A stretch of DNA of 42,954 bases. Source: an uncultured Oscillospiraceae bacterium (GTDB taxonomy: Bacteria > Bacillota > Clostridia > Oscillospirales > Oscillospiraceae). Below, one piece after another: positions 6,714-21,024 of the stretch. Under the pieces are notes generated by a model. That model ran no database searches. It saw nothing but the letters and a program-made list of their open reading frames with translations, and was not told where the DNA came from. Each line of letters begins with the position of its first letter. Position 1 is the first letter of the stretch. Location of the stretch: the NCBI GenBank assembly GCA_934565775.1, contig CAKTIN010000006.1, forward strand, positions 1-42,954, given 5' to 3'. The position numbers were made by a program, and so were the translations under genes.

Positions 6714-6741
6714 ATTGTACCAGATTTCTCCCGTTTGTCAA
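6714..6741 (-). promoter_or_regulatory. Sigma-A promoter of the T-box/NUDIX/alaS unit
   Basis: TTGACA (6736-6741) and TACAAT (6714-6719) with a 16-bp spacer. The TGA inside the -35 box is the stop codon of the csaB fusion gene (6738-6740), so the promoter begins exactly where the upstream gene ends. Confidence 0.9.
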
Positions 6742-8960
6742 CAGTTTTCCCCGTTATACAGCTCCCAGGCCAGCTCTCCGTTCCGGGCGGCCAGGTGGCG
6801 CAGACGGCCGACGATCTCTCCCTCCACCGGACGGCTGGAGGCCGCAGCGTCGATCAAGTCGCACAGCGCGCCTGTGGAGACCTCGCCGGCGGAGATATAA
6901 TTGGCCTGCTCCAGGTAATCCAAGAAGCTGCTGACCTTGGGGTCGTAGACAATGCCCGCTACGGGGACCCCCTGGCCGGAGGCGAAGATCAGAGCGTGGA
7001 GCCGCATGGAGACTACGATCTCCATTTTGGAGATCACGGCGCAGATGGTCGCGCCGTCCTGAATGACCGGCAGGGCGATCTTGGGGCAGCGGACCAGGTC
7101 CATGACCTGCTGGGTGATGGCCTGATCCTTGCCGGGCTCCAGCATAAAGAACACCGGGGTCATGCCATAGGTGCGGTAAGCGTATTCGGCGGCGGCGGCA
7201 AAGCAGGAAAGGCGCTGCCGGACGGTTTTCCACCGGCGCAGGACGAACATACAGTATTTTCCCTTGGGGTCCAGACCGGCCTGCTCCATGGCGGCGTCCT
7301 GCTCCGGCGCGGCGACGCCCTGAAGCAGGGTGGGGTCTGCCGTGATATACACCTTGGGGCGGGAGACATTCAGCGCCTCCAGAGTGTCCTGGGAATCCGG
7401 ATCCCGCAGGGTGATCACATCGGCGCACCGGTCGATGATGCGCCCGGCCAGGCGGCGGTTAAGCTTCCGGTTTACCGGGCCGATGCCGCAGCCGTAGAGC
7501 ATTACCCGGGCGCCGCAGCGATAGGCCGTGCGGATGGTCCAGAGATAATACAGAAGGGAGCGGGTGGAGGTCACATCCTGGATCAGGCTCCCGCCGCCGC
7601 TGATAAACAGCCGGGTCCGGCGGAGCTGGCGGCGAACCGCCCCCATGGAGAAGGTGTAGATGCTCTTGACGTTGTTGCGCAGGGCGGCGCCTACCGGGTC
7701 CTTGCTCAGCACGCAGATGGGCACATCCGGGTCCTGCTGGCGGAACTGCTGAATGATGGCAGCGAGAATGGTCTCGTCCCCGGCGTTGCCCCGGCCGTAG
7801 GCCCCGCAGATGGTGATCTCCCGCCTGTACCATTCCAGCGCCTTTTTCTGCCGGAGCAGGACGGAGCGGTAAATTTCCACCTGGGCCTGCACGGTGGCTT
7901 CAATGGAGAATTCCTCCCGGGTCAGGTCGTAGATGGCCTGCCCCAGCCGGGTCCGCAGCGCGGCGTCCCGGGCGAGAAGGAGCATATCCCGGGTCAGCGC
8001 GTCCGTATCCCCCGGGGCGAGGAGCAGACCGGTCTGCCGGTCCCGGACGACCTTGGCCACGCCGCCCACATCGGTGGCGATGGTGGCGCAGTGCAGCCGG
8101 GCGCCCTCGGTAACGGCGTAGGGGAAGGTCTCCGACAGGGAGGTCAGACAGTTGACATCAATGGCATTGTAAAAGCTGTTCATGTCCGTGACCCATCCGG
8201 CAAAGACCACGGTCCCCGGCGGGCAGAGCTTTTCGGCCAGAGCCTCCAGCTTGCCGCGGTCCTCGCCGTCTCCGGCGATCACCAGGCGGGCGGTGGGCTC
8301 CTGAGCTACGGTTTTGGCAAAGGCGTGCAGAAGGGTGGGAATATCCTTCACCGGGGAGATCCGGGCGGCAAGGCCGAAGACCACGCTGCCGGGCTCCCGC
8401 TGTAGGCCGATCCGGTCCAGAAAGGCCTCCCGGTCCATAGTGGGGGCCGTATGGGAGAAGTCCACGCCGTTGTAGATCGTGTAGATCCGCTGGGGGTCAT
8501 AGCCTCTGCGGATCAGAAGCTCCCGCATCCGGTCGGATACGGCCACCCAATAGTCAAACTGCTTCAGGGCCCGGCGGTTGGCCGCGCCGATGGTGAGGTT
8601 GCGCAGCGGGCGGCCCAGATAGTCCAGGCTGGGGTCCGAGTGGACCGTGGTGAGAAAGGGTTGGTAAAAAGAGCCGTGGATCAGCCGGGCCATAATGTTG
8701 GCCCGAGAGCCGTGGCAGTGGATCACGTCGAACTGCCTTTGGCGGATCAGCGTCTTCAGCTGCTTTGCCACCAGGTTGAGGTTGCGGGAGGGGTATACCA
8801 GGGTGGGAATGCCAAGAGCCCGGGCGTCCTGGGCAAATTCGCCCTCCAGGAAGCATACCAGCTGCACCTCATGTTCCTTTTTCAGGCCGGAGAGCAGGCT
8901 GAGCACATGGGTTTTCGCTCCGCCGACATCGCCGCCGGAGATCATATGGAGGATTTTCAT
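6738..8960 (-). CDS. csaB: GT4 glycosyltransferase fused to CsaB polysaccharide pyruvyl transferase
   Basis: 740 residues, about twice a stand-alone CsaB. Residues 1 to about 375 are a GT4-type glycosyltransferase: HMISGGDVGGAKTHV at the N-terminus, FDVIHCHGSRAN, GLAARISPVKD, and the E-x7-E region SETFPYAVTEGA. Residues from about 385 to the end are a polysaccharide pyruvyl transferase: ICGAYGRGNAGDETILAAI, ISGGGSLIQD, GCGIGPV and the SMRLHALIFA His motif. CsaB adds pyruvate ketals to the secondary wall polymer that SLH domains bind. Start at 8960 has an AGGAATCTCC site. It lies 28 bases downstream of the dprA-like gene and probably shares its promoter. An SLH protein in this window (14778-20834) is a plausible client. 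Confidence 0.92.
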   Translation of the reverse strand: MKILHMISGGDVGGAKTHVLSLLSGLKKEHEVQLVCFLEGEFAQDARALGIPTLVYPSRNLNLVAKQLKTLIRQRQFDVIHCHGSRANIMARLIHGSFYQPFLTTVHSDPSLDYLGRPLRNLTIGAANRRALKQFDYWVAVSDRMRELLIRRGYDPQRIYTIYNGVDFSHTAPTMDREAFLDRIGLQREPGSVVFGLAARISPVKDIPTLLHAFAKTVAQEPTARLVIAGDGEDRGKLEALAEKLCPPGTVVFAGWVTDMNSFYNAIDVNCLTSLSETFPYAVTEGARLHCATIATDVGGVAKVVRDRQTGLLLAPGDTDALTRDMLLLARDAALRTRLGQAIYDLTREEFSIEATVQAQVEIYRSVLLRQKKALEWYRREITICGAYGRGNAGDETILAAIIQQFRQQDPDVPICVLSKDPVGAALRNNVKSIYTFSMGAVRRQLRRTRLFISGGGSLIQDVTSTRSLLYYLWTIRTAYRCGARVMLYGCGIGPVNRKLNRRLAGRIIDRCADVITLRDPDSQDTLEALNVSRPKVYITADPTLLQGVAAPEQDAAMEQAGLDPKGKYCMFVLRRWKTVRQRLSCFAAAAEYAYRTYGMTPVFFMLEPGKDQAITQQVMDLVRCPKIALPVIQDGATICAVISKMEIVVSMRLHALIFASGQGVPVAGIVYDPKVSSFLDYLEQANYISAGEVSTGALCDLIDAAASSRPVEGEIVGRLRHLAARNGELAWELYNGENC

Positions 8961-11296: not shown

Positions 11297-11325
11297 TTGA
11301 AATTGTGGTTGCATTGCTGTATAAT
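11297..11325 (+). promoter_or_regulatory. Sigma-A promoter of the RiPP-like cluster
   Basis: TTGAAA (11297-11302), exact 17-bp spacer and TATAAT (11320-11325). Leader of about 50 bases to the pqqD-like gene. No later promoter of this quality was seen before the GH20 gene, so the cluster is likely one transcript. Confidence 0.88.
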
Positions 11326-11381: not shown

Positions 11382-11648
11382 TTGAGGGCGAGACAAGACG
11401 TGATCCTGCGCCGGGTGGCGGGGGAGACTCTGCTGATCCCCACGGGGGAGGCCGCCATGCGGCTCAGCGGTATGGCCACGCTGAACGAGGCCGGGCAGAT
11501 CCTTTGGGATGCCCTGCAAAAGGACTGCACCATGGAGGACCTGGCGGACGCTCTGATGGGCGAATATGAGGTGGACCGGGCCACGGCTTTGGCCGACGCA
11601 GCGGAGTTTGCAGAAAAAATGGCCGAGGCGGGGCTGCTGGACCCGTAA
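11382..11648 (+). CDS. PqqD-family RiPP recognition element protein
   Basis: 88 residues. PqqD-type proteins are small winged-helix domains (RRE) that bind the leader of a ribosomal peptide and present it to a radical SAM maturase. The pattern fits: an N-terminal beta hairpin (VILRRVAGETLLIP), then LNEAGQILWDAL, then an acidic helix ending in the hydrophobic tail AEAGLLDP. The start is TTG: a GAGGAGG site (11369-11375) is correctly spaced for it, while the ATG at 11377 stops after one codon. It sits two genes ahead of the candidate peptide and four ahead of the radical SAM gene, which supports the assignment. Confidence 0.88.
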   Translation: MRARQDVILRRVAGETLLIPTGEAAMRLSGMATLNEAGQILWDALQKDCTMEDLADALMGEYEVDRATALADAAEFAEKMAEAGLLDP

Positions 11649-11661
11649 AAGAGGAATGTAC

Positions 11662-12402
11662 ATGAAAACGATGCGTTTGCGGGCAGGGGCGCTGGCGGCG
11701 ATGCTGTGCCTGGCGCTTCTGTGCGGCTGCAAGGGCGGAGGCGGAGCGCCGGAGTCCACGGAGCCCGGGCAGACCCTCCAGACCCAGGATACCCGGGAGG
11801 CTGGGACCGAAGGATCGACGGAGCCGGTCCAGACCCTGCCGCCCATGGAGTTTCCGGTGCGGCTGGAGGACGGCCGCCTGGAGGTGACGGGACTGTTCCT
11901 GTTTACCGGGATGAATCCGGACCGGGGCCGGGCCCCGGGAGAGAATATCCCGGTGCTGGTGGTCAAAAACTGTTCCGGGGAATACCTGACCCGGGGGGAG
12001 CTGACGCTGACCTCCGTGGAGGGTGAGACCTTCACCTTCCGTCTGGAGCAGGTGCCGGATGGGCAGACCGTCTGGGCCTTTGCTACGGACGGCGGGAGCC
12101 TGGACTCCGAGGGAGACGGCGCGGCGGTGACCGGGTCGGCCGACTTCGAGCCCCAGCCGGAGCTGCCGGAGGGGCTGGCGTGCAGCGGGGAGCGGACGAC
12201 GCTCACCCTGCAAAATCAGGGGGATTCGGTGCTAAAGGGCCTGCGGGTCTGGTGCCACTGCCTGGTGGAGGGCGCCTATTTTGGCGGCGCCGCCTATGTC
12301 TATCCCGTGGAGCAGATCGCCCCCGGGAGCTCCGTGACCGTGGAGGCTGCGGAGTGCTATTTGGGAGAAGCGTCGGTCGTCCGGGTAGCCGCGGACGGCT
12401 GA
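11662..12402 (+). CDS. Lipoprotein in RiPP-like cluster, function unknown
   Basis: 246 residues with a lipoprotein signal peptide: basic start, hydrophobic run, then lipobox ALLCGC with the lipid-bearing Cys at about residue 22. After it comes a low-complexity Gly/Thr/Glu linker, then two beta-rich stretches with an FxxxG-like immunoglobulin-style feel (VTGLFLFTG, IPVLVVKNCSGEYL, VLKGLRVWCHCLVEG). I do not recognise a family. The ATG at 11662 is chosen for the AGAGGAA site and the signal peptide; the frame is open about 100 bases further upstream inside pqqD. It begins 13 bases after the pqqD-like stop. It might be an immunity or export-linked surface factor, but that is inference only. Confidence 0.8.
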   Translation: MKTMRLRAGALAAMLCLALLCGCKGGGGAPESTEPGQTLQTQDTREAGTEGSTEPVQTLPPMEFPVRLEDGRLEVTGLFLFTGMNPDRGRAPGENIPVLVVKNCSGEYLTRGELTLTSVEGETFTFRLEQVPDGQTVWAFATDGGSLDSEGDGAAVTGSADFEPQPELPEGLACSGERTTLTLQNQGDSVLKGLRVWCHCLVEGAYFGGAAYVYPVEQIAPGSSVTVEAAECYLGEASVVRVAADG

Positions 12403-12411
12403 TACACAGAC

Positions 12412-12426
12412 CCCGGCTCTGCCGGG
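12412..12426 (+). other. Small hairpin ahead of the precursor peptide gene
   Basis: Perfect 6-bp GC stem (12412-12417 with 12421-12426) with a TCT loop, no T tract. Lies between the lipoprotein stop and the peptide ribosome site; it may stabilise or separate the peptide portion of the transcript. Confidence 0.5.
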
Positions 12427-12461
12427 AAAAGGAAAATCGGAAAATGGGAGGAAACAAGACG

Positions 12462-12710
12462 TTGAAACACTATGTAAAACCGGAATTATATGTGGAGCGC
12501 TTTGAACTGGCGCAGCACATTGCCGGATGCTATGTCCAGATGAATCTGACATCGGCAGCGACCTGCGAGGCAAAGGCAGGCTCCTTCGGCGGCAGCGATG
12601 TAACCGGCTGGTTTACCGATGCGGTGACCAATTGCTCATCCAAAATGCCGGGCTTTGAGGGCTACTGCTATACCAACTCCGTCAACGTGATGGGAATGTT
12701 CCAGTCCTAA
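12462..12710 (+). CDS. Candidate RiPP precursor peptide, four Cys, C-terminal Ser
   Basis: 82 residues from a TTG start that has a GGGAGGA site eight to nine bases upstream; an in-frame ATG at 12444 would place the start ahead of that site and looks less likely. The N-terminus MKHYVKPELYVERFELAQ then HIAGC resembles the leader of many uncharacterised small clostridial peptides (YxKPELxxExFxxxQxIAxC, from memory). The following 60 residues are Gly/Ser/Thr/Ala-rich with Cys at 23, 35, 58 and 69 and end in GMFQS. No signal peptide. Flanked by an RRE protein, a kinase-like ATPase and a radical SAM/SPASM enzyme, it is the obvious substrate candidate. The chemistry installed is unknown. Confidence 0.78.
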   Translation: MKHYVKPELYVERFELAQHIAGCYVQMNLTSAATCEAKAGSFGGSDVTGWFTDAVTNCSSKMPGFEGYCYTNSVNVMGMFQS

Positions 12711-12718
12711 GAAAGGTC

Positions 12719-13582
12719 TTGGGTACTTACGATTACCGCTTTTCCATCGCCGGGCGGGGGCTGGCGCTTTGCCTGCCCCGGGAGAGCCGGATTTCTGAGG
12801 ATTTCGCCCCGTTTCGCTGCGAAGGCCCGGCGGACCTGACCGTGGAATTCCGCCCGGCGGAGACGCTGCCGCCCCTGACCGGCGCGCCGGTGTTCCGGGG
12901 CGTGGGCTTTTCCGTATTTCGCCAGGGGGAGGCGTTCCTGCGCCGGTATTATGAGCCGGCCCGGGAGGACCGGCCCTATGCGGTGAGCGGACTGACCCCT
13001 GCCGGGGGGACGGTACGCTTCCTGCCGGAGGCGGAGCGGGTCTTTCGGGAGATGAACCGCTGCTTTCTGCATGTGGCGCTGGAGGAGCTCCTGCTTCGGT
13101 GGGACCGGCTGATTCTCCATGCCTCCTTTGTGGATTCGCCCTATGGCGGGCTCCTGTTTTCCGGGCCCTCGGGCATCGGGAAGTCAACCCAGGCGGCCCT
13201 GTGGCGGGACTGCCGGGGCAGCACGGTGATCAACGGGGACAAGCCCATCCTCGGCCGGGAGGCCGGGGTGTGGACGGCCTGGGGCTCGCCCTTTGCCGGG
13301 TCCTCCCGGTGCTATGTGCCCCGGCGGGAGCCCGTGGCGGCGATCTTCCTGCTGGAGCAGGGGCCGGATTGCCGGGTGGAGCGTCTGCTCCCAGGGGAGA
13401 GCTTCCGGGGGCTGTACGCCGGGACGGTGATCAACAGCTGGAACCGCGCCTATGTAAAGAAAGCCTGCGATCTGCTTCTGGACCTGGCCTGCCGGGTGCC
13501 GGTGTACCGCCTGCGCTGCACGCCGGATGCAGCGGCGGTGGAGGCGGTGGAGCGAACCCTTGCGAAAGGGGAGAAAGCCTGA
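12719..13582 (+). CDS. HPr kinase-like ATPase of RiPP-like cluster
   Basis: 287 residues. The C-terminal half is an HPr kinase/phosphorylase-type P-loop domain: RLILHASFV with H134, Walker A GPSGIGKST at 149-157, INGDKPIL with D174, and WGSPFAGSS near 190. The N-terminal 120 residues do not resemble the DRTGG domain of true HPr kinase, and no HPr-recognition features are obvious. Homologues of this kind occur in lasso-peptide clusters, where they phosphorylate a Ser of the precursor; that is the basis for suggesting it acts on the adjacent peptide. Starts with TTG at 12719, 8 bases after the peptide stop, with only a cramped GAAAGG site, so coupling is likely. Confidence 0.82.
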   Translation: MGTYDYRFSIAGRGLALCLPRESRISEDFAPFRCEGPADLTVEFRPAETLPPLTGAPVFRGVGFSVFRQGEAFLRRYYEPAREDRPYAVSGLTPAGGTVRFLPEAERVFREMNRCFLHVALEELLLRWDRLILHASFVDSPYGGLLFSGPSGIGKSTQAALWRDCRGSTVINGDKPILGREAGVWTAWGSPFAGSSRCYVPRREPVAAIFLLEQGPDCRVERLLPGESFRGLYAGTVINSWNRAYVKKACDLLLDLACRVPVYRLRCTPDAAAVEAVERTLAKGEKA

Positions 13583-14713
13583 TTGAGCGTAAAAGAACAA
13601 TTCATACAAGCGCCGCTGACCCGCTTCCTGCTGGAGAAGGCCAGCCGGGGCCGGATTCCCATCAACGGGACCTTTGAGCTCTCACCGGTGTGCAACTTCA
13701 ATTGCCGGATGTGCTACGTCCGCAAGACGGCGGAGCAGGTCCGGGCCAGCGAACGGCCGATCATGACCCTGGAGCGCTGGCTGGAGCTGGCCCGCCAGGC
13801 CCGGGAGGAGGGGCTGCTGTACCTGCTGCTGACCGGCGGGGAGCCGTTTCTGTGGCCGGATTTCTGGCCGCTGTATGAGCAGCTGGCCCAGATGGGCTTC
13901 ATCCTGTCGGTGAATACCAACGGTTCGCTGCTGGACGAGGCGGCGGTGGAGCGGCTGCGGCGCCGTCCGCCGGTGCGGCTGAATATCACCCTGTACGGCG
14001 CAAGCGACGATACCTATGAGGCCCTGTGCCGGACCCGGGGCGGCTATAGCCGGGTGGCCCGGAACATAGACCGGCTGCTGGCGGCAGGGATCCAGGTCAA
14101 GCTGAACTGCTCCCTGATCCCGGAGAACGCCGGGGATCTGGCGGCGATCCACGCCTTTGCGGCAGAGCGGAAGCTGATCCTGGAGACCAATACCTATATG
14201 TTCCCGCCGGTGCGGCGGGACCCTGCCTGTGTGGGGCGCAACGAGCGCTTCACCCCGGCCCAGGCGGCGCACTATAATCTGGAGCGCTACCGGCTGCTGT
14301 TTGGGCAGGAGGAATACGAAACCTATCTGCAAGGCATTCTGGCCGGACTGGCGCCGCCTCCGGGGCTGGAGGATTGCCCGGCGGACGGCCCGGAGGGCGG
14401 CATCCGCTGCCGGGCGGGGAATGCGGCGTTCTGGGTGACCTGGGACGGCTGGCTGACCCCCTGCGGGATGATGCCGGAGCCCCGGGTGGACCTGTCGGCG
14501 GGAGACTTTGCCCCGGCCTGGCGGGAGCTGACCCGGCTGAGCGACGAGGTGCGGGTGTCTGCGGTGTGCAGCGCCTGCCCGGATAAGGCGGCGTGTCACG
14601 CATGCGCGGCCATGGCCCTGGCGGAGACGGGCTCTGCCGCCGGTCTTCCTAAATACCTATGCGAAATGGTAGCGGCCATGCGCACAGAGGCGCGGGCGCT
14701 GCTGGAGAAATGA
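13583..14713 (+). CDS. Radical SAM/SPASM peptide maturase
   Basis: 376 residues. The radical SAM cluster motif is C37-NFN-C41-RM-C44, followed by TGGEP near 84-88. The C-terminal SPASM domain is nearly textbook: C276-x12-G289-x4-C294, then C329-x2-C332-x5-C338-x2-C341 (x3 is usual) and C360, binding auxiliary 4Fe-4S clusters. SPASM enzymes with a PqqD partner (PqqE and relatives) form C-C, thioether or similar links on ribosomal peptides. TTG start at 13583 follows the kinase TGA directly, with GGGGAG ten bases upstream. The substrate is presumably the 82-residue peptide two genes upstream; the product type cannot be read from the sequence. Confidence 0.92.
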   Translation: MSVKEQFIQAPLTRFLLEKASRGRIPINGTFELSPVCNFNCRMCYVRKTAEQVRASERPIMTLERWLELARQAREEGLLYLLLTGGEPFLWPDFWPLYEQLAQMGFILSVNTNGSLLDEAAVERLRRRPPVRLNITLYGASDDTYEALCRTRGGYSRVARNIDRLLAAGIQVKLNCSLIPENAGDLAAIHAFAAERKLILETNTYMFPPVRRDPACVGRNERFTPAQAAHYNLERYRLLFGQEEYETYLQGILAGLAPPPGLEDCPADGPEGGIRCRAGNAAFWVTWDGWLTPCGMMPEPRVDLSAGDFAPAWRELTRLSDEVRVSAVCSACPDKAACHACAAMALAETGSAAGLPKYLCEMVAAMRTEARALLEK

Positions 14714-14777
14714 TCTGTGAATAACGGCCCGCAGCCAGCGGGTGTTATGGATGAACAAAAATGGGGAGGAAAATAAG

Positions 14778-17700
14778 TTGAAACGGATGAAGAAAAGCTT
14801 ATCTTTGCTTCTGGTCCTGTGTATGCTGCTGAGTATGCTCCCGACGGGAGTCTGGGCGGCCCAGGGCACTGCGGCGGAGACAAATGCGGCTTCTGCGGAC
14901 TCTTCTTACCGGATCGTCCAGGTGGACGCCGGGCGGAAGTATTGGAGCGTAGAGGTCTTAAAGCAGCTGATCGATGAAATGGCGAAGAACCATTATAATC
15001 AGCTGGGCCTGTACTTCAGCGATAACCAGGGCTTCCGGTTTGCGCTGAATAACATGACCTTTACGGTGGACGGAAAGAATTACGACCTGAGCAAGGCCCT
15101 GGGGAACGGGATTATGCAGACCGGTGACAGGGCCCCGGTAAAGACGGAGGACCCCAACCAGGCCCATTTCCGTCCCAGCCATGAGGACAAGTGGCTTGAC
15201 GAGACGGAGATGAAGGAGATCATCTCCTATGCCCGGAAGAAGGGCATTGAGATCGTGCCCTCCTTCGATATGCCCGGGCATATGGGTGCGATTCTGAATG
15301 CTCCGGATTTTGAGGCGTTCAAATACGCGGGCTATGGAACAACTACGAATTCTTCCTTTGACGTGACCAACGCCACGGCCCAAAAGGTGATGCTGGCCAT
15401 TTTGGAGCGGTATGTGCAATTCTTTGCGGCCAACGGCTGCCGGTATTTCAATATCTGCTCGGATGAGTTCTGCTATGATATTGGACATTCGACTGCGGAT
15501 AGCATTTCGAATCCGACCCTGTGCCGGGCGATCGTCTCTTTTATGGACGAAGCGGCCAAGGTGATCGTGAAGGCGAAAATGACCCCGCGGGCGTTCAGCG
15601 ATTATCTGTATGCCGATTCCGGCTACAACTACTCTGAAGCCTATAAGAAGTATGAGATTCTGTTCTGGGACAAGTCTACGAACCTTGCGGAATGCCAGAG
15701 CAGAGGAAACAAGCTCATCAACGTGGACGAGAGCTGCTATTATGCGCTGAATACGGCGTATTATACTTCCCCGGACGTGAGCGTAAAATCCTTTAGACCG
15801 GATTACGTTGCCACAAAGGGAAGCGGCTTTGCCCTGCCGAATCCTGCCGGTGCGATGCTCTGCATCTGGTGCGACGGCGGTTATCTGGATTCCGAGCCTG
15901 CGGAGGGCGACGCCGGTGCGTCGGTGCTGAACCAGGTGATGAACTTCAAGTCCAATGGGCAGACGGCGGCTACGAACCTGCTGGCGGCCTTTGCGGAGAA
16001 GGTCAATGCTTATTATAATGTAGATACCAGCGCGGTCGTCTATGACCTCTATGTGGGCGATAGTGTGTCGCTTCATGTGACTGGTGACTTCTCCAACGCG
16101 GAAGGGGCTTTGGCGCTGCTTGCGGGTGTTGGGGATACCTCCGCTGTATCGGTCAAAGTGGAGAACTTCAAGGCTGGCGACCCCGGCGGAAAATTGACAC
16201 AGGTGGAGGCACCGACAGCTGGCAGTGAGGTCGTAGTTACAGACGGCACGAACTTCTTGGTCGTGAATGCGGATAGCAGTTTTGAAAACACGACGGATGC
16301 TTCGCTGGCCACGCGGTTTACCATTGAAAAGGAAGGTAATAATTTCTATTTGAAATACAATGGGAGCAAACTGACTGGCGGAGCGGAATGGAATGACGGA
16401 GATAAGTTCTTTAAATTAGCGCTGGGAGCTTCGTCAACGCCGTGGCTTTATAAGAATGGAACGCTGAAGGAAGCGTGGAACACCAACCGCTATATTACAT
16501 TTGATAATGAATGGAAGCTTTCTCTTAGTGCACCAACAACTCCTGTGGTAGTTAAGGCCTCTTCTGCGGCGGTTCCGGCGTCGGCAGATTTGGTGCTTAC
16601 CGGCGTTAAAGTTGGTACTGCGATCTATACTTTGGACGGCGTTACTTATACGATAAATGTAACCGAAAAGGGAACAGAGCCGCCTGTGACAGAGCCGACG
16701 GAAGCACCCACGGATCCCACGGAAAATCCGACGGATCCCACGGAAAATCCGACGGATCCCACGGAGAAGCCGACGGAGCCGCCTGTGACGGAGCCTTCCG
16801 AAACGGAACCCATGCCGACTTACCCGGAGGAAGATAACGGTATTGTATATGTCAATATTCCTGTAGGCGGCAGCCGTTCGTATGATCTGATCGGAAAAGA
16901 TTATACAAATGACTATGAGTCCACACTTGATACGACCAAGGCTGGTTTGGAGCTCAAGTACCATGACTATGTGGCGCCTGGTGCTCCGACTCTGCTGAAC
17001 GAATTGAGCGCGGGCCAGGGAATCATTATTGAGAGCAATGGATATTATCTGGTCCAGGACGGGGATACGTTTGGGGCAACCACGGATGTCACCAAGGCCA
17101 CGGTTTGGAAAGTGAAGGATAACCAGGGCTTTGAGATTTACACGGATGCGAACCATTTCCTGGATTTGGATTGGAATAATAGCTTGGTATACCGTAACGG
17201 AAATTACTCCGAGAAAAAATGGGTGTTTGATGAGGAAGGACTGCATATTCTTAAGAGGGCTTGGGAGACCAACAGCTATTACCTCACTTTTGCGGACGGC
17301 GCATGGTCGGTGACAAACACTAAGCCAAGCAGCCTGACTGCTATCTATGCAGAAGGCGATCCGGCAAAGCCTGCCGGAACGCTGGTTACCTTCAGCGGCG
17401 TATCTGTGGGATATGCTGGCGAGGTTAAGATTGGCGGAACGACCTATCATGTAACGGTCGTGCCCGAGTCTTTGAAGGATGCCCCTGCCCTGACGGCATA
17501 TTACTTCATTACGAACAACAAGGCCTACGGCGCAGTGAGCGGCGAGCATGTCATTCAGCTGGACGCAACCTCTGCCTATGGCGAGCAGGGTGTTCCCTTC
17601 AACCGCCTGGTGGAGAAGACTGCGGCTTGGGCGCTGTCCGAGAATCCTCTGGCCTTCTGGAAGGGCGTGTGCCTCCCCTATGGGAAATGGCAGACTGCAA

Positions 17701-20700
17701 TCAAGGAAGATGTCCCCGGAAAGGGCGACTCGATCGATAAGACCCTGGAGGGCAGCGGCTTTACCTACATCCGGTATTACAATGATATGTGGGCGTGGTC
17801 CAATACCCCGGAGAAGGCGGACAGCTGGACACAGATCAAGACTGACGCAGCATCCGAGGACCAGATCGTTGCTTACTATCTGCAGGTGACCCCCGTCACG
17901 AAGGAAATCACGACCCAGGTCGCCGACTGGGGCTATACCCAGGACGATGGGAACTTCAACGGAACGAACGATCTGACCGGCGGCTATGTGCTGCTGGACT
18001 ATGCGGTACGGTATCCCGATCTGCACCGCAACCCCAACAACTTTACCCGCGACCTGACGATCTCCTACCATACGCTGGTCAACGATGCCCAGGTGAAGGC
18101 GGACGGAAGCGAGGGTAACCTGAACCGTACGCGGCGTATCGGCGTTTCCCGCGCCGTGAACTCCTCGGAGTACGAGGTGTATCTGGTAACGGTGACGCCC
18201 AGCAATGACGATCCCAGCGTGAAGCTGACGGATGCGAACGGAACTGCTGCTGCGATGCCGAATGACGTAATGAAGAATTCCGACCAACTCTACAACGGGA
18301 CGGAATATGTCGCCTGGGCGCTGACGGAGCAGGATTACATAGACAGCGGCCTGCCGAAGGTAAAGGGAATCGGAAGCGCGAGCACAAAGGATAAGACCTA
18401 CGCGGAAACCCTGGGAATCGCGAATTACCATGTCGGCGGCGACTGTACGGTGGACGAGGTCTGGATCGTGCGGAACCAGGCTATGCGGATCACCTACTAC
18501 ATCCGCGATAAGCACGTGGAGGAAGCGCCCCTTCAGGTCTATTACTACGATATCACCGACGGCGCTGCGGATAAGCCCTTCTTTGAGTTCGGTATTTATA
18601 CCGCCGAGCCCGAGGAGTTTACCGGCCGCGTGGACGACGGTAAGGACCCCATTTTCCAGACGACTAACAAGTATGGTGTGCTGCAGGAGGTCCATAAGGA
18701 TCTGAGCAGGACCGGCTGCCCGCCCTATTACCGGACGGCCAACTATCAGTATGTAGAGTGCAAGATCTCCACCGACGGCAAGACCCTGGACCTCTTCTAT
18801 AGAAGACAGGCGGGCGAAGTGTATGTTGTGGACTTCGGCCTTCCGCTGGAGGTTACCATGAAGAAGATCCTGGAGGGTGCGCAGAGCCTCAGTACGATCG
18901 ATGGCATTGCGAGCATCCAGATCAACGGTGCGAACCTGAAATACGGCGTGCTGTCTACGGACTTTGCCCAGGCAAAGGAAGTCAAGCTGTCGGACGTGGT
19001 CTTTACCTATCGCCCCACCAAGGTCATGAGCGGCACCGAGACCATTGGCATCACGGTGAACTTCACGGAAGAAGGGGCGGATCCTCTGGTTTCCACCATT
19101 ACCCTTCTCCCCGCGACGACCGTGTACTATGAGCAGGGCTTTGCCTCCTATACGGGCAACTGGGACGACGGGAAGGCCTTCACGGGCGGCGAGAGCAAGC
19201 AGCAGGCGGCCCTGGCTGGCGACACCCAGAAGGCGGAGAATCCCGCCTGGAATTACGGCTACGATGGAGCGTATGAAGCCCAGCGGGATGCGCTGAATTC
19301 CTATGCCGGGACGAACACCATCGGTGCGGCTGCGACCTTTGCCTTTACCGGTACCGGCGTGGACATTTACGCCGATTGCACCAACAACAGCGGCAGCGTC
19401 ATGATGATGCTGACGAAGGACGGCAAGATGGAGCGCCTGATCATCGTCGATACCCGGAACAAGGGCGGCGAAACCGGCGCGACGGATTTTGAGACCGGCC
19501 TGACCGAGACCTATAACATCCCCATCATCAGCCTGCGGAACCTGGAGTACGGCACCCATGAGGTGAAGCTGATCCACTGCGAGAGCTTTGGCGAGGATTC
19601 CAAGGTCGAGACCCGGGCGGACGGCTTCCGCTTTGACGGCTTCCGGGTGTACAATCCCATGGGCAGCGATTCCTTCGCCCAGGCACAGTACGCCCTGGAT
19701 ATGGAGGCGAACCCCTCCTACACCGAGCTGCGGGACGCTGAAATTCTGGCGCTGAATCTGAGCAAGGACCTGCTGGACGGCAGCGACTATGCAGAGGACC
19801 TGGCGAAGGACATTATGTCTCAGGTCAACGCGAAGTACCCCGAGGGGATCAGCGTGAGCGCGGTTGTGACACGCCAGAATGATGGCAGCGACGTGATTTC
19901 GGCGGACCTCCTGGACAACGGCCCGAAGAACGAGATCTACCTGCGCCAGAATGAGAGCATTACCATTGTGGACCGGAACAAGAATAGCCGCGCCCAGCTG
20001 GGTATGAAGGCGCTGAGCGGCGCCGTAACTTATCAGATGAACGGCAGCGAGGCTAAGACCCTTGCGGCAAATGTGGATCTGTTCTACCCCATGACCTGGA
20101 CCCCGATCGACAGCGGCAGCACGGCTACCGTTGCAAACGCCGGGCAGGCCCCCATGGCGGTGACGATTCTGAAGCAGTTCAGCGCCGACGCCACGGCGAA
20201 GGTCACCGAGGAGCTGGTGGCGCAGCTGCTGATGCAGATGGGCGTTCCCTCCGCGCACGAGAGCGATGCCTGGGAGAATCCCTTCACCGACGTGCATGAA
20301 GGCGCTTGGTTCTACGGCGCCGTGAAGTATGTCTATGAAAACGGCCTGTTCAAGGGCACGACGCCTACGACCTTCGAGCCCGGCTCCAACATGACCCGGG
20401 GAATGCTGGCTGTGGTGCTGTACCGCCTGGCCGGTGAGCCGGAGACCGATGCGGCCAACCCCTTCACCGATGTGAAGGATGACGCCTACTTTGCCAAGGC
20501 TGTGGCCTGGGCGGCGGAGCAGGGGATTGTCCTGGGCCGCGGCGATGGAACCTTCGCCCCCGGTGAGGACGTCACGCGCCAGGATATGGTGGTGATGCTG
20601 TACCGGTACGCAGTCTCCGTGGACAAGACCGGCGCAGCCGGAGCGGAGACGCTGGACTTCACCGATGCGGACGAGGTGCTGGCCTATGCCAAGCAGGCAG

Positions 20701-20834
20701 TGGCCTGGGCCGTGGCCAACGGCATTCTCAAGGGCTATGACCTGGGCGGCGCATTTGCGCTGCTGCCCGGCAAGACCATTAACCGCGCGGAGGTTGCCGC
20801 GATCATGGAGCGCGTTGCGCCCATTCTGAAGTAA
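14778..20834 (+). CDS. Secreted, SLH-anchored GH20 beta-hexosaminidase-like protein
   Basis: 2018 residues from a TTG at 14778 that has a GGGGAGGA site; an ATG 36 bases upstream is in frame but lies before that site. Signal peptide (KRMKKSLSLLLVLCML to about VWA). GH20 domain residues about 35-415 with the catalytic Asp-Glu pair D229-E230 in NICSDEFCYD; GH20 enzymes cleave terminal GlcNAc/GalNAc or lacto-N-biose from glycans by substrate-assisted catalysis. Two similar beta-rich modules follow (about 421-632 and 689-901), split by a Pro/Thr/Glu linker (632-684) with 21-bp DNA repeats. A carbohydrate-binding-like module lies at about 1446-1628, and three SLH domains begin near 1833, 1892 and 1956. 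Likely a surface glycan (mucin-type) hydrolase; substrate is inference. Confidence 0.9.
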   Translation: MKRMKKSLSLLLVLCMLLSMLPTGVWAAQGTAAETNAASADSSYRIVQVDAGRKYWSVEVLKQLIDEMAKNHYNQLGLYFSDNQGFRFALNNMTFTVDGKNYDLSKALGNGIMQTGDRAPVKTEDPNQAHFRPSHEDKWLDETEMKEIISYARKKGIEIVPSFDMPGHMGAILNAPDFEAFKYAGYGTTTNSSFDVTNATAQKVMLAILERYVQFFAANGCRYFNICSDEFCYDIGHSTADSISNPTLCRAIVSFMDEAAKVIVKAKMTPRAFSDYLYADSGYNYSEAYKKYEILFWDKSTNLAECQSRGNKLINVDESCYYALNTAYYTSPDVSVKSFRPDYVATKGSGFALPNPAGAMLCIWCDGGYLDSEPAEGDAGASVLNQVMNFKSNGQTAATNLLAAFAEKVNAYYNVDTSAVVYDLYVGDSVSLHVTGDFSNAEGALALLAGVGDTSAVSVKVENFKAGDPGGKLTQVEAPTAGSEVVVTDGTNFLVVNADSSFENTTDASLATRFTIEKEGNNFYLKYNGSKLTGGAEWNDGDKFFKLALGASSTPWLYKNGTLKEAWNTNRYITFDNEWKLSLSAPTTPVVVKASSAAVPASADLVLTGVKVGTAIYTLDGVTYTINVTEKGTEPPVTEPTEAPTDPTENPTDPTENPTDPTEKPTEPPVTEPSETEPMPTYPEEDNGIVYVNIPVGGSRSYDLIGKDYTNDYESTLDTTKAGLELKYHDYVAPGAPTLLNELSAGQGIIIESNGYYLVQDGDTFGATTDVTKATVWKVKDNQGFEIYTDANHFLDLDWNNSLVYRNGNYSEKKWVFDEEGLHILKRAWETNSYYLTFADGAWSVTNTKPSSLTAIYAEGDPAKPAGTLVTFSGVSVGYAGEVKIGGTTYHVTVVPESLKDAPALTAYYFITNNKAYGAVSGEHVIQLDATSAYGEQGVPFNRLVEKTAAWALSENPLAFWKGVCLPYGKWQTAIKEDVPGKGDSIDKTLEGSGFTYIRYYNDMWAWSNTPEKADSWTQIKTDAASEDQIVAYYLQVTPVTKEITTQVADWGYTQDDGNFNGTNDLTGGYVLLDYAVRYPDLHRNPNNFTRDLTISYHTLVNDAQVKADGSEGNLNRTRRIGVSRAVNSSEYEVYLVTVTPSNDDPSVKLTDANGTAAAMPNDVMKNSDQLYNGTEYVAWALTEQDYIDSGLPKVKGIGSASTKDKTYAETLGIANYHVGGDCTVDEVWIVRNQAMRITYYIRDKHVEEAPLQVYYYDITDGAADKPFFEFGIYTAEPEEFTGRVDDGKDPIFQTTNKYGVLQEVHKDLSRTGCPPYYRTANYQYVECKISTDGKTLDLFYRRQAGEVYVVDFGLPLEVTMKKILEGAQSLSTIDGIASIQINGANLKYGVLSTDFAQAKEVKLSDVVFTYRPTKVMSGTETIGITVNFTEEGADPLVSTITLLPATTVYYEQGFASYTGNWDDGKAFTGGESKQQAALAGDTQKAENPAWNYGYDGAYEAQRDALNSYAGTNTIGAAATFAFTGTGVDIYADCTNNSGSVMMMLTKDGKMERLIIVDTRNKGGETGATDFETGLTETYNIPIISLRNLEYGTHEVKLIHCESFGEDSKVETRADGFRFDGFRVYNPMGSDSFAQAQYALDMEANPSYTELRDAEILALNLSKDLLDGSDYAEDLAKDIMSQVNAKYPEGISVSAVVTRQNDGSDVISADLLDNGPKNEIYLRQNESITIVDRNKNSRAQLGMKALSGAVTYQMNGSEAKTLAANVDLFYPMTWTPIDSGSTATVANAGQAPMAVTILKQFSADATAKVTEELVAQLLMQMGVPSAHESDAWENPFTDVHEGAWFYGAVKYVYENGLFKGTTPTTFEPGSNMTRGMLAVVLYRLAGEPETDAANPFTDVKDDAYFAKAVAWAAEQGIVLGRGDGTFAPGEDVTRQDMVVMLYRYAVSVDKTGAAGAETLDFTDADEVLAYAKQAVAWAVANGILKGYDLGGAFALLPGKTINRAEVAAIMERVAPILK
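16710..16772 (+). repeat. Three 21-bp tandem repeats in the Pro/Thr/Glu linker
   Basis: Units at 16710-16730, 16731-16751 and 16752-16772; the first two are identical and the third differs at two bases. Each encodes a seven-residue TDPTENP-type unit. Such linkers are flexible, extracellular and prone to length change between strains. Confidence 0.92.
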
Positions 20835-20995: not shown

Positions 20996-21024
20996 TTGAC
21001 ATTTCTGCTTTTTGCGTATATACT
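20996..21024 (+). promoter_or_regulatory. Near-consensus sigma-A promoter of candidate small RNA
   Basis: TTGACA (20996-21001), exact 17-bp spacer and TATACT (21019-21024). The predicted first base is about 21031, directly before a long closing stem. Confidence 0.88.

Follow-up and report, generated by a model that had tools for sequence, protein, structure and literature searches.

The window, meaning the whole 42,954-nucleotide stretch of DNA analysed here from an uncultured Oscillospiraceae bacterium, carries a cassette of six consecutive genes, all on the + strand, that encode a PqqD-type protein, a lipoprotein, a small peptide, a kinase resembling HPr kinase (HPrK), a radical SAM/SPASM enzyme and a giant surface protein. 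The cassette probably specifies a ribosomally synthesized and post-translationally modified peptide (RiPP) that is phosphorylated in the manner of the linear polyphosphorylated peptide (LPP) and paeninodin systems, receives an added radical SAM step and serves as the partner of a surface protein. The conserved gene set, the YxxP leader of the peptides, their terminal Ser and a module shared by the giant proteins are firm observations.

Conservation of the gene set and its peptides

A profile of 21 kinases searched against genome contigs returned 497 relatives, from which the best 80 loci were taken. Together with the window, these Bacillota loci form a sample of 81 sequences holding 86 kinase genes, 44 of which are well flanked, with 6 kb of sequence on both sides. 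Database records assign the loci to Oscillospiraceae, Lachnospiraceae, Erysipelotrichaceae and other Bacillota, many of them from gut samples. A peptide with a [YW]xxP leader, of whatever class, lies within 3 kb of 75 of the 86 kinase genes. Around the well-flanked kinases, a radical SAM gene is found within 6 kb in 43 cases, PqqD in 37, the giant-protein module in 32 and the lipoprotein in 26; a peptide of class I, defined below, stands within 3 kb of 36, and 22 of the 44 have all five partners with a class I peptide. Iterated profiles, weak matches included, recover PqqD in 61 of the 81 sequences, lipoprotein relatives in 55, the peptide in 68 and the radical SAM enzyme in 74. The order pqqd-lipo-pep-kin-rsam-giant occurs in 15, giant-pep-kin-rsam-lipo-pqqd in 5 and a divergent form in 3, and others exist.

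Because the set recurs in many genomes and in several gene orders, the cluster is more than a chance arrangement, and its retention across those orders makes a shared function likelier than a frozen order. A first-pass annotation of the window had proposed looking for co-occurrence of five of these genes in other genomes; the search finds the five-gene set conserved across related Bacillota loci, and this conservation lends good support, at the level of sequence, to that annotation's core idea that PqqD may present one peptide to both the radical SAM enzyme and the kinase. The cassette is infrequent nonetheless: of the genomes sampled from two orders, a leader-only profile matched 4 of 247 in one and 6 of 294 in the other.

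The precursor in the window most likely starts at the TTG at 12462, preceded by GGGAGG. In class I peptides the leader follows the consensus MKKxYxKPxxxxExFxLSQxIAxC, the core mostly carries four Cys and the C-terminus reads FxS. Ser is the last residue in 65 of the 66 leader-motif peptides of this class in the loci and the window, the exception (L037) ending FGSY, and Phe stands at −3 in 59; two model matches without the leader motif (L045 and L069) are Ser-terminated too. Apart from the terminal residue, no Ser or Thr position is invariant in the class. Class II ('NEYVAAC', 86-140 residues) has the [YW]xxP leader with a core unlike that of class I, and class III ('IADKC', 93-119 residues) has it with a core unlike those of the other classes. 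Class III examples are L057:1168-1488, L135:1079-1360 and L210:757-1116, in which the leader ends [KN][IV]AD[KQ]C and the peptide ends in Ser.

The terminal Ser extends across all three classes. From all fetched loci and the window, 88 distinct peptides were chosen by leader alone, and 86 of them end in Ser, compared with 32 of 650 other called open reading frames (ORFs) of at least 150 amino acids. By class the counts are 72/73, 11/12 and 3/3, and in the one class II exception (L074) the ORF lies next to a second frame whose end reads HPNRS. The first position of the [YW]xxP motif, itself part of the selection, is Y in 80 and W in 8. Run against a database, the class I profile gave 122 relatives, the best 120 of which, pooled with the peptides of an earlier search, make a set of 121. 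All 121 have YxxP, 109 have four Cys and 117 end in Ser; 119 are new relative to the loci, and 115 of these are Ser-terminated.

A control with a leader-only profile of 24 positions reached 12 places in 10 genomes, two centre genomes included. Eight of the 12 peptides end in Ser. For seven of these a kinase gene is no more than about 2 kb away; the remaining one, L105, sits at the end of a contig, where 10 kb of sequence show no kinase, in a genome that has kinases. The other four (L160, L161, L163 and L164) are peptides of 44-45 residues that have a leader of this kind; their last residues are Y, F, F and F, in the ends NF or NY. The 1.8-3.0 kb fetched around them contain neither a kinase nor a radical SAM gene, and their genomes have no kinase match at E 1e-30. 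On these small numbers, the C-terminal Ser goes with the kinase. The first-pass annotation had singled out the four Cys of the window peptide, which are present, but the strongest signature of the family is its C-terminal Ser.

Enzymes, lipoprotein and giant protein

The window kinase passes no curated family cut-off, with sub-threshold matches only to HprK_rel_B (E 0.0054), ScmC (E 0.0055) and Hpr_kinase_C (E 0.22). A database search yielded 816 relatives at E 0.001; the newer Pfam label PF27840 stands on most of the best 120 of these 816, and the Pfam version used here gives no such match for the window kinase. When its profile is compared with that of four genuine HPrKs from carrier genomes, the alignment covers residues 129-272 (probability 90.5, P 1.4e-6), a stretch that takes in His134 and the Walker A loop, while the N-terminal region before residue 129 is unrelated to HPrK. 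Matches of the kinase profile to PDB sequences are all weak, the best being to an unrelated protein (E 0.058), with HPrK at E 0.27 over residues 133-185. His134, Lys155 of Walker A and Asp174 are invariant in 21 kinases. A separate genuine HPrK is kept, one each, in all five carrier genomes checked.

A shorter HPrK-like branch of about 240-250 amino acids (L136-L158, for example L138:791-2199) often stands with PqqD and, in the members looked at, with a SipW-like peptidase, no radical SAM gene being found there. In the order of genome G002 (Anaeromassilibacillus), 75 of 247 genomes have a kinase relative at E 1e-8, and the short branch in that order looks like LPP proper.

The PqqD-type RiPP recognition element (RRE) that the first-pass annotation had assigned to 11382-11648 is borne out by a Pfam match (PF05402), and the protein reaches E about 1e-7 against lasso PqqD models, below the model cut-offs. 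In the radical SAM proteins of the loci and window, CxxxCxxC is followed by Y, F, W, H or L in 75 of 76, and a tail with CxxC plus further Cys is present in all 76. The best NCBIfam relative of the window enzyme is mycofact_rSAM (E 4e-21), far under its cut-off, and none of the matches listed there reaches a curated cut-off. The lipoprotein begins MKTMRLRAGALAAMLCLALLCGC, which forms a lipobox (ALLCGC); Pfam gives no match for it even at E values up to 1, and its structure model (pLDDT 91) is nearly all beta.

The giant protein contains GH20 (E 4.4e-25) and SLH (E 4.4e-30) domains, and its likeliest start, judged by eye, is the TTG at 14778 behind GGGGAGGA and not the longest-ORF start at 14742. 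In 52 of the 81 sequences, giant proteins encoded near the cassette share a module of about 390 residues with a CBM-like jelly roll in it, and the remainder of these proteins varies. Their domains include GH20, sialidase-like repeats, VWA and CBM26, so that by sequence they look glycan-active or adhesive. At the 44 well-flanked kinases, lipoprotein and module occur together in 24 cases, the lipoprotein only in 2, the module only in 8 and neither in 10 (Fisher p 0.001, kinship ignored). Genome G010 has one kinase and three peptide/giant-protein pairs apart from the enzyme genes, with no lipoprotein, kinase or radical SAM gene beside these pairs in the stretches fetched; the layout suggests that one enzyme set could serve several pairs in trans. 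The giant glycosidase gene placed by the first-pass annotation at the end of the cluster is present, with its GH20 and SLH domains, but recurrence of the module makes it look like a true partner that belongs to the system rather than a mere end gene. One other genome, G233 (L180, L182-L186), holds six module matches and four kinase matches, an expansion.

Proposed pathway and its rivals

In the proposed pathway, the PqqD-type RRE would bind the YxKP motif of the leader and present the peptide to two enzymes, the kinase and the radical SAM/SPASM enzyme. The HPrK-like kinase would place phosphate on the C-terminal Ser, at the hydroxyl of this near-invariant residue, and the radical SAM enzyme would alter the Cys-containing core, probably through Cys-centred cross-links. 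Removal of the leader near the IA(x)C site would be followed by export of the peptide, which at the surface would act with the membrane-anchored Ig-like lipoprotein and with the giant protein, a glycan-active or adhesive one; the likeliest mode is binding of the peptide to the module common to the giant proteins. We infer from sequence that phosphate is added and where, what the radical SAM enzyme makes, and that the leader is removed, the peptide exported and the module bound. Phosphorylation of the last Ser is likely, whereas action of the peptide as partner of the giant protein falls slightly short of an even chance. A wider proposal, that these systems form a new RiPP class in which every giant surface protein is matched with a dedicated peptide, C-terminally phosphorylated and radical SAM-modified, as a structural or regulatory ligand of the module, is tentative and rather doubtful. 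If it is true, the RiPP would serve as part of the gut bacterial cell surface rather than as a secreted antibiotic.

Several observations weigh against the proposed pathway. The HPrK Asp-Asp pair reads Gly-Asp in these kinases (NGD in 83 of 86, with NDD, SND and CND once each), and lasso kinases are reported to need a His-Lys-Asp-Asp motif. The Gly-Asp pair counts against plain HPrK membership and may do so for the lasso kinases; catalysis might involve a different base, or the kinase could be altered. In the LPP system the kinase targets Ser3 of the core and not a C-terminal Ser (PMC13381572). Domain-library scans of the six cluster proteins and 16 other window proteins found no peptide exporter or leader peptidase, an absence that the first-pass annotation had also remarked on. 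Kinase genes without a leader-motif peptide within 3 kb number 11 (L033, L043, L044, L049, L050, L053, L055, L060, L064, L078 and L080). Contig ends explain L044, L055 and L060; at L053 a 110-residue peptide ending LFNS is visible, which the motif had missed; the L043 genome has its peptides elsewhere, beside giant proteins; and at L033 and L078 the peptide lies about 9 kb from the kinase. The kinases at L049, L050, L064 and L080 are flanked, with no peptide found and the absence unexplained; the first-pass annotation had named kinase and radical SAM genes lacking an adjacent peptide as evidence that would count against it, and it holds at the great majority of kinases but not at these four.

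Others concern the peptide and its surface partner. Four database peptides lack a terminal Ser: in P0154 and P0239 it is the penultimate residue, P0161 ends FAY and P0231 looks truncated. Five class II sets with the order pqqd-pep-rsam-kin have neither giant protein nor lipoprotein. One of the four G010 module genes stands without a peptide found, and genome G161 has the module with no kinase match at E 1e-5. In favour of the pairing, the distance between peptide cores tracks that between modules beyond the kinase and radical SAM enzyme (partial r 0.34, 0 of 2000 permutations), although this is a correlation between linked genes that is based on crude distances.

Bacteriocins typically combine conserved leaders with variable cores, and lipoproteins can serve as immunity proteins. 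The cassette could on these grounds encode a secreted antimicrobial RiPP, with the peptide as bacteriocin, the lipoprotein as its immunity protein and the giant gene merely carried along, and the class II sets that do without a giant protein agree with this. The lipoprotein goes with the giant module, however, cassettes of several different gene orders have the module nearby, and the G010 peptides adjoin giant proteins with no lipoprotein or enzyme gene in the stretches fetched, which together make a bacteriocin unlikely. The HPrK-like protein might instead have become an ATP-dependent chaperone or adaptor after losing one catalytic Asp, leaving the radical SAM enzyme as the sole modifier of the peptide. 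Replacement of the Asp-Asp pair by NGD and an HPrK match that starts only at residue 129, behind an unrelated N-terminal region, fit such a loss, but the invariance of His134, Lys155 and Asp174 does not, nor does a near-invariant C-terminal Ser, the known target of HPrK-like RiPP kinases; we regard this explanation as highly improbable.

A plain LPP member, in which the kinase, like LppK, polyphosphorylates an early core Ser and the C-terminal Ser owes its retention to, for example, export or peptidase recognition, would account for the leader type, the discrete RRE and the HPrK-like kinase. Genes of the LPP setting also occur near some cassettes among the 81 sequences: capsule-type (Wzz/Wzc-like) in 24, ABC exporter in 19, SpI-like in 10, NTP_transf_5 in 10 and CpsB/CapC in 9, each group being named from one member. 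No Ser is conserved early in the core, however, the invariant Ser/Thr of class I being the last residue only, and the LPP leader consensus is not fully matched. The radical SAM gene near 43 of the 44 well-flanked kinases likewise separates the cassette from LPP, the term being absent from the main text of the LPP paper (PMC13381572). Such membership is quite unlikely, and the phosphorylated, radical SAM-modified partner of a surface protein remains the preferred explanation.

Window layout and known systems

All six genes lie where the first-pass annotation had placed them, on the + strand, and its promoter at 11297-11325 is borne out in the sense of a promoter-like site. The scanned region holds 10 promoter-like sites against a mean of 4.2 in shuffles. 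The window scan found nothing resembling a terminator in the interval from the radical SAM gene to the giant gene, and a hairpin at 14721-14748 is ordinary for the local composition (z -1.1). A second strong promoter-like site (TTGACA-17-TATACT) lies at 20996-21024, just 3' of the giant gene. Near the cassette, 6741-8960 on the - strand encodes a family 4 glycosyltransferase fused to a polysaccharide pyruvyl transferase.

Table 1. Features of the cassette, in window coordinates.
Feature	Position	Strand	Basis
Promoter-like site, sigma-70-type, TTGAAA-17-TATAAT, before PqqD gene	11297..11325	+	11/12 matches
PqqD-type RRE protein, 88 amino acids, TTG start	11382..11648	+	PF05402, E 7.6e-15
Lipoprotein, two Ig-like beta sandwiches	11662..12402	+	Lipobox ALLCGC; structure model
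Precursor peptide, 82 amino acids, leader KHYVKPELYVERFELAQHIAG, C-terminal FQS	12462..12710	+	Cys 23, 35, 58, 69
Codon of C-terminal Ser, proposed phosphorylation site	12705..12707	+	Last-residue conservation
HPrK-like kinase, 287 amino acids, own N-terminal region	12719..13582	+	His134, Walker A 149-156 (Lys155), NGD 172-174
Radical SAM/SPASM enzyme, CNFNCRMC motif, Cys-rich tail	13583..14713	+	PF04055, E 4.8e-27
Giant secreted GH20 protein, C-terminal SLH repeats	14778..20834	+	PF00728, PF00395; start by eye
Shared module of giant protein, residues 1420-1812 of 2030-residue ORF	18999..20177	+	Recurs in relatives
SLH repeats (surface anchor)	20265..20831, outer bounds by eye	+	PF00395, three stretches, best residues 1907-1949

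The radical SAM/SPASM RiPPs (PQQ, mycofactocin, sactipeptides and SynChlorMet), like the cassette, pair a PqqD-type RRE with a SPASM-like enzyme, and the kinase weakly matches ScmC of the SynChlorMet cassette. To our knowledge, neither a giant surface partner nor a fixed C-terminal Ser is part of these systems. HPr kinase/phosphorylase has a similar P-loop core, in which the His, the Walker A loop and one Asp correspond, whereas here one Asp of its pair is Gly and the N-terminal region is different. For the paeninodin-type lasso peptides, reviews report that the HPrK-like kinases PadeK, ThcoK and SyanK add phosphate to the Ser at the C-terminus of the precursor, largely irrespective of its other residues, and that this Ser is conserved in otherwise unlike precursors (PMC9266682, PMC8498205). 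Those systems have a lasso cyclase, a B2 protease and a WxxP leader, and the cassette has a radical SAM enzyme instead; neither a macrolactam synthetase nor a B2 protease is found among the six cluster genes or the 16 other window proteins scanned. Against the lasso His-Lys-Asp-Asp motif, the kinase has His, Lys and one Asp invariant and Gly-Asp for the pair, as read from an alignment to HPrK.

The leader is of the type found in LPP, also of Bacillota, which has a [Y/W]xxP leader, a discrete RRE and an HPrK-like kinase. The lpp cluster of Paenibacillus alginolyticus, described in 2026, encodes an RRE, an HPrK-like kinase, an SpI peptidase, an NTP transferase and an MsbA-like exporter, with LPP clusters often found in capsule loci, and binding of the YxxP leader by the discrete RRE has been shown (PMC13381572). 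Its leader consensus, YxxPxVLxHQxIxFETxxS, differs from that of class I, and its product is predicted to be linear, whereas the cassette adds a radical SAM enzyme, a Cys core, a lipoprotein and a giant partner; rSAM, lipoprotein and surface are further words absent from the main text of that paper (PMC13381572). The window proteins scanned include no SpI-like peptidase, NTP transferase or MsbA-like exporter. Genes of the capsule chain-length or tyrosine-autokinase type lie near L068, L028, L056 and other cassettes.

A full-text literature search gave, among the matches listed, no title or abstract that describes a set of HPrK-like kinase, PqqD and radical SAM enzyme; subscription literature lies mostly outside it, and the result is not proof of absence. 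The first-pass annotation knew of no described system with the full set, which holds for the literature searched; the set is not wholly without precedent, however, because LPP clusters have an RRE, a kinase and a leader of these types (PMC13381572). According to the LPP paper, what LPPs and paeninodins do biologically is unknown (PMC13381572); the conserved giant surface partner offers a candidate role, concrete enough to test, for a phosphorylated RiPP related to them. The cassette would add a radical SAM step to the HPrK-kinase RiPP pathway and predicts a single phosphosite, which can be tested by a single mutation.

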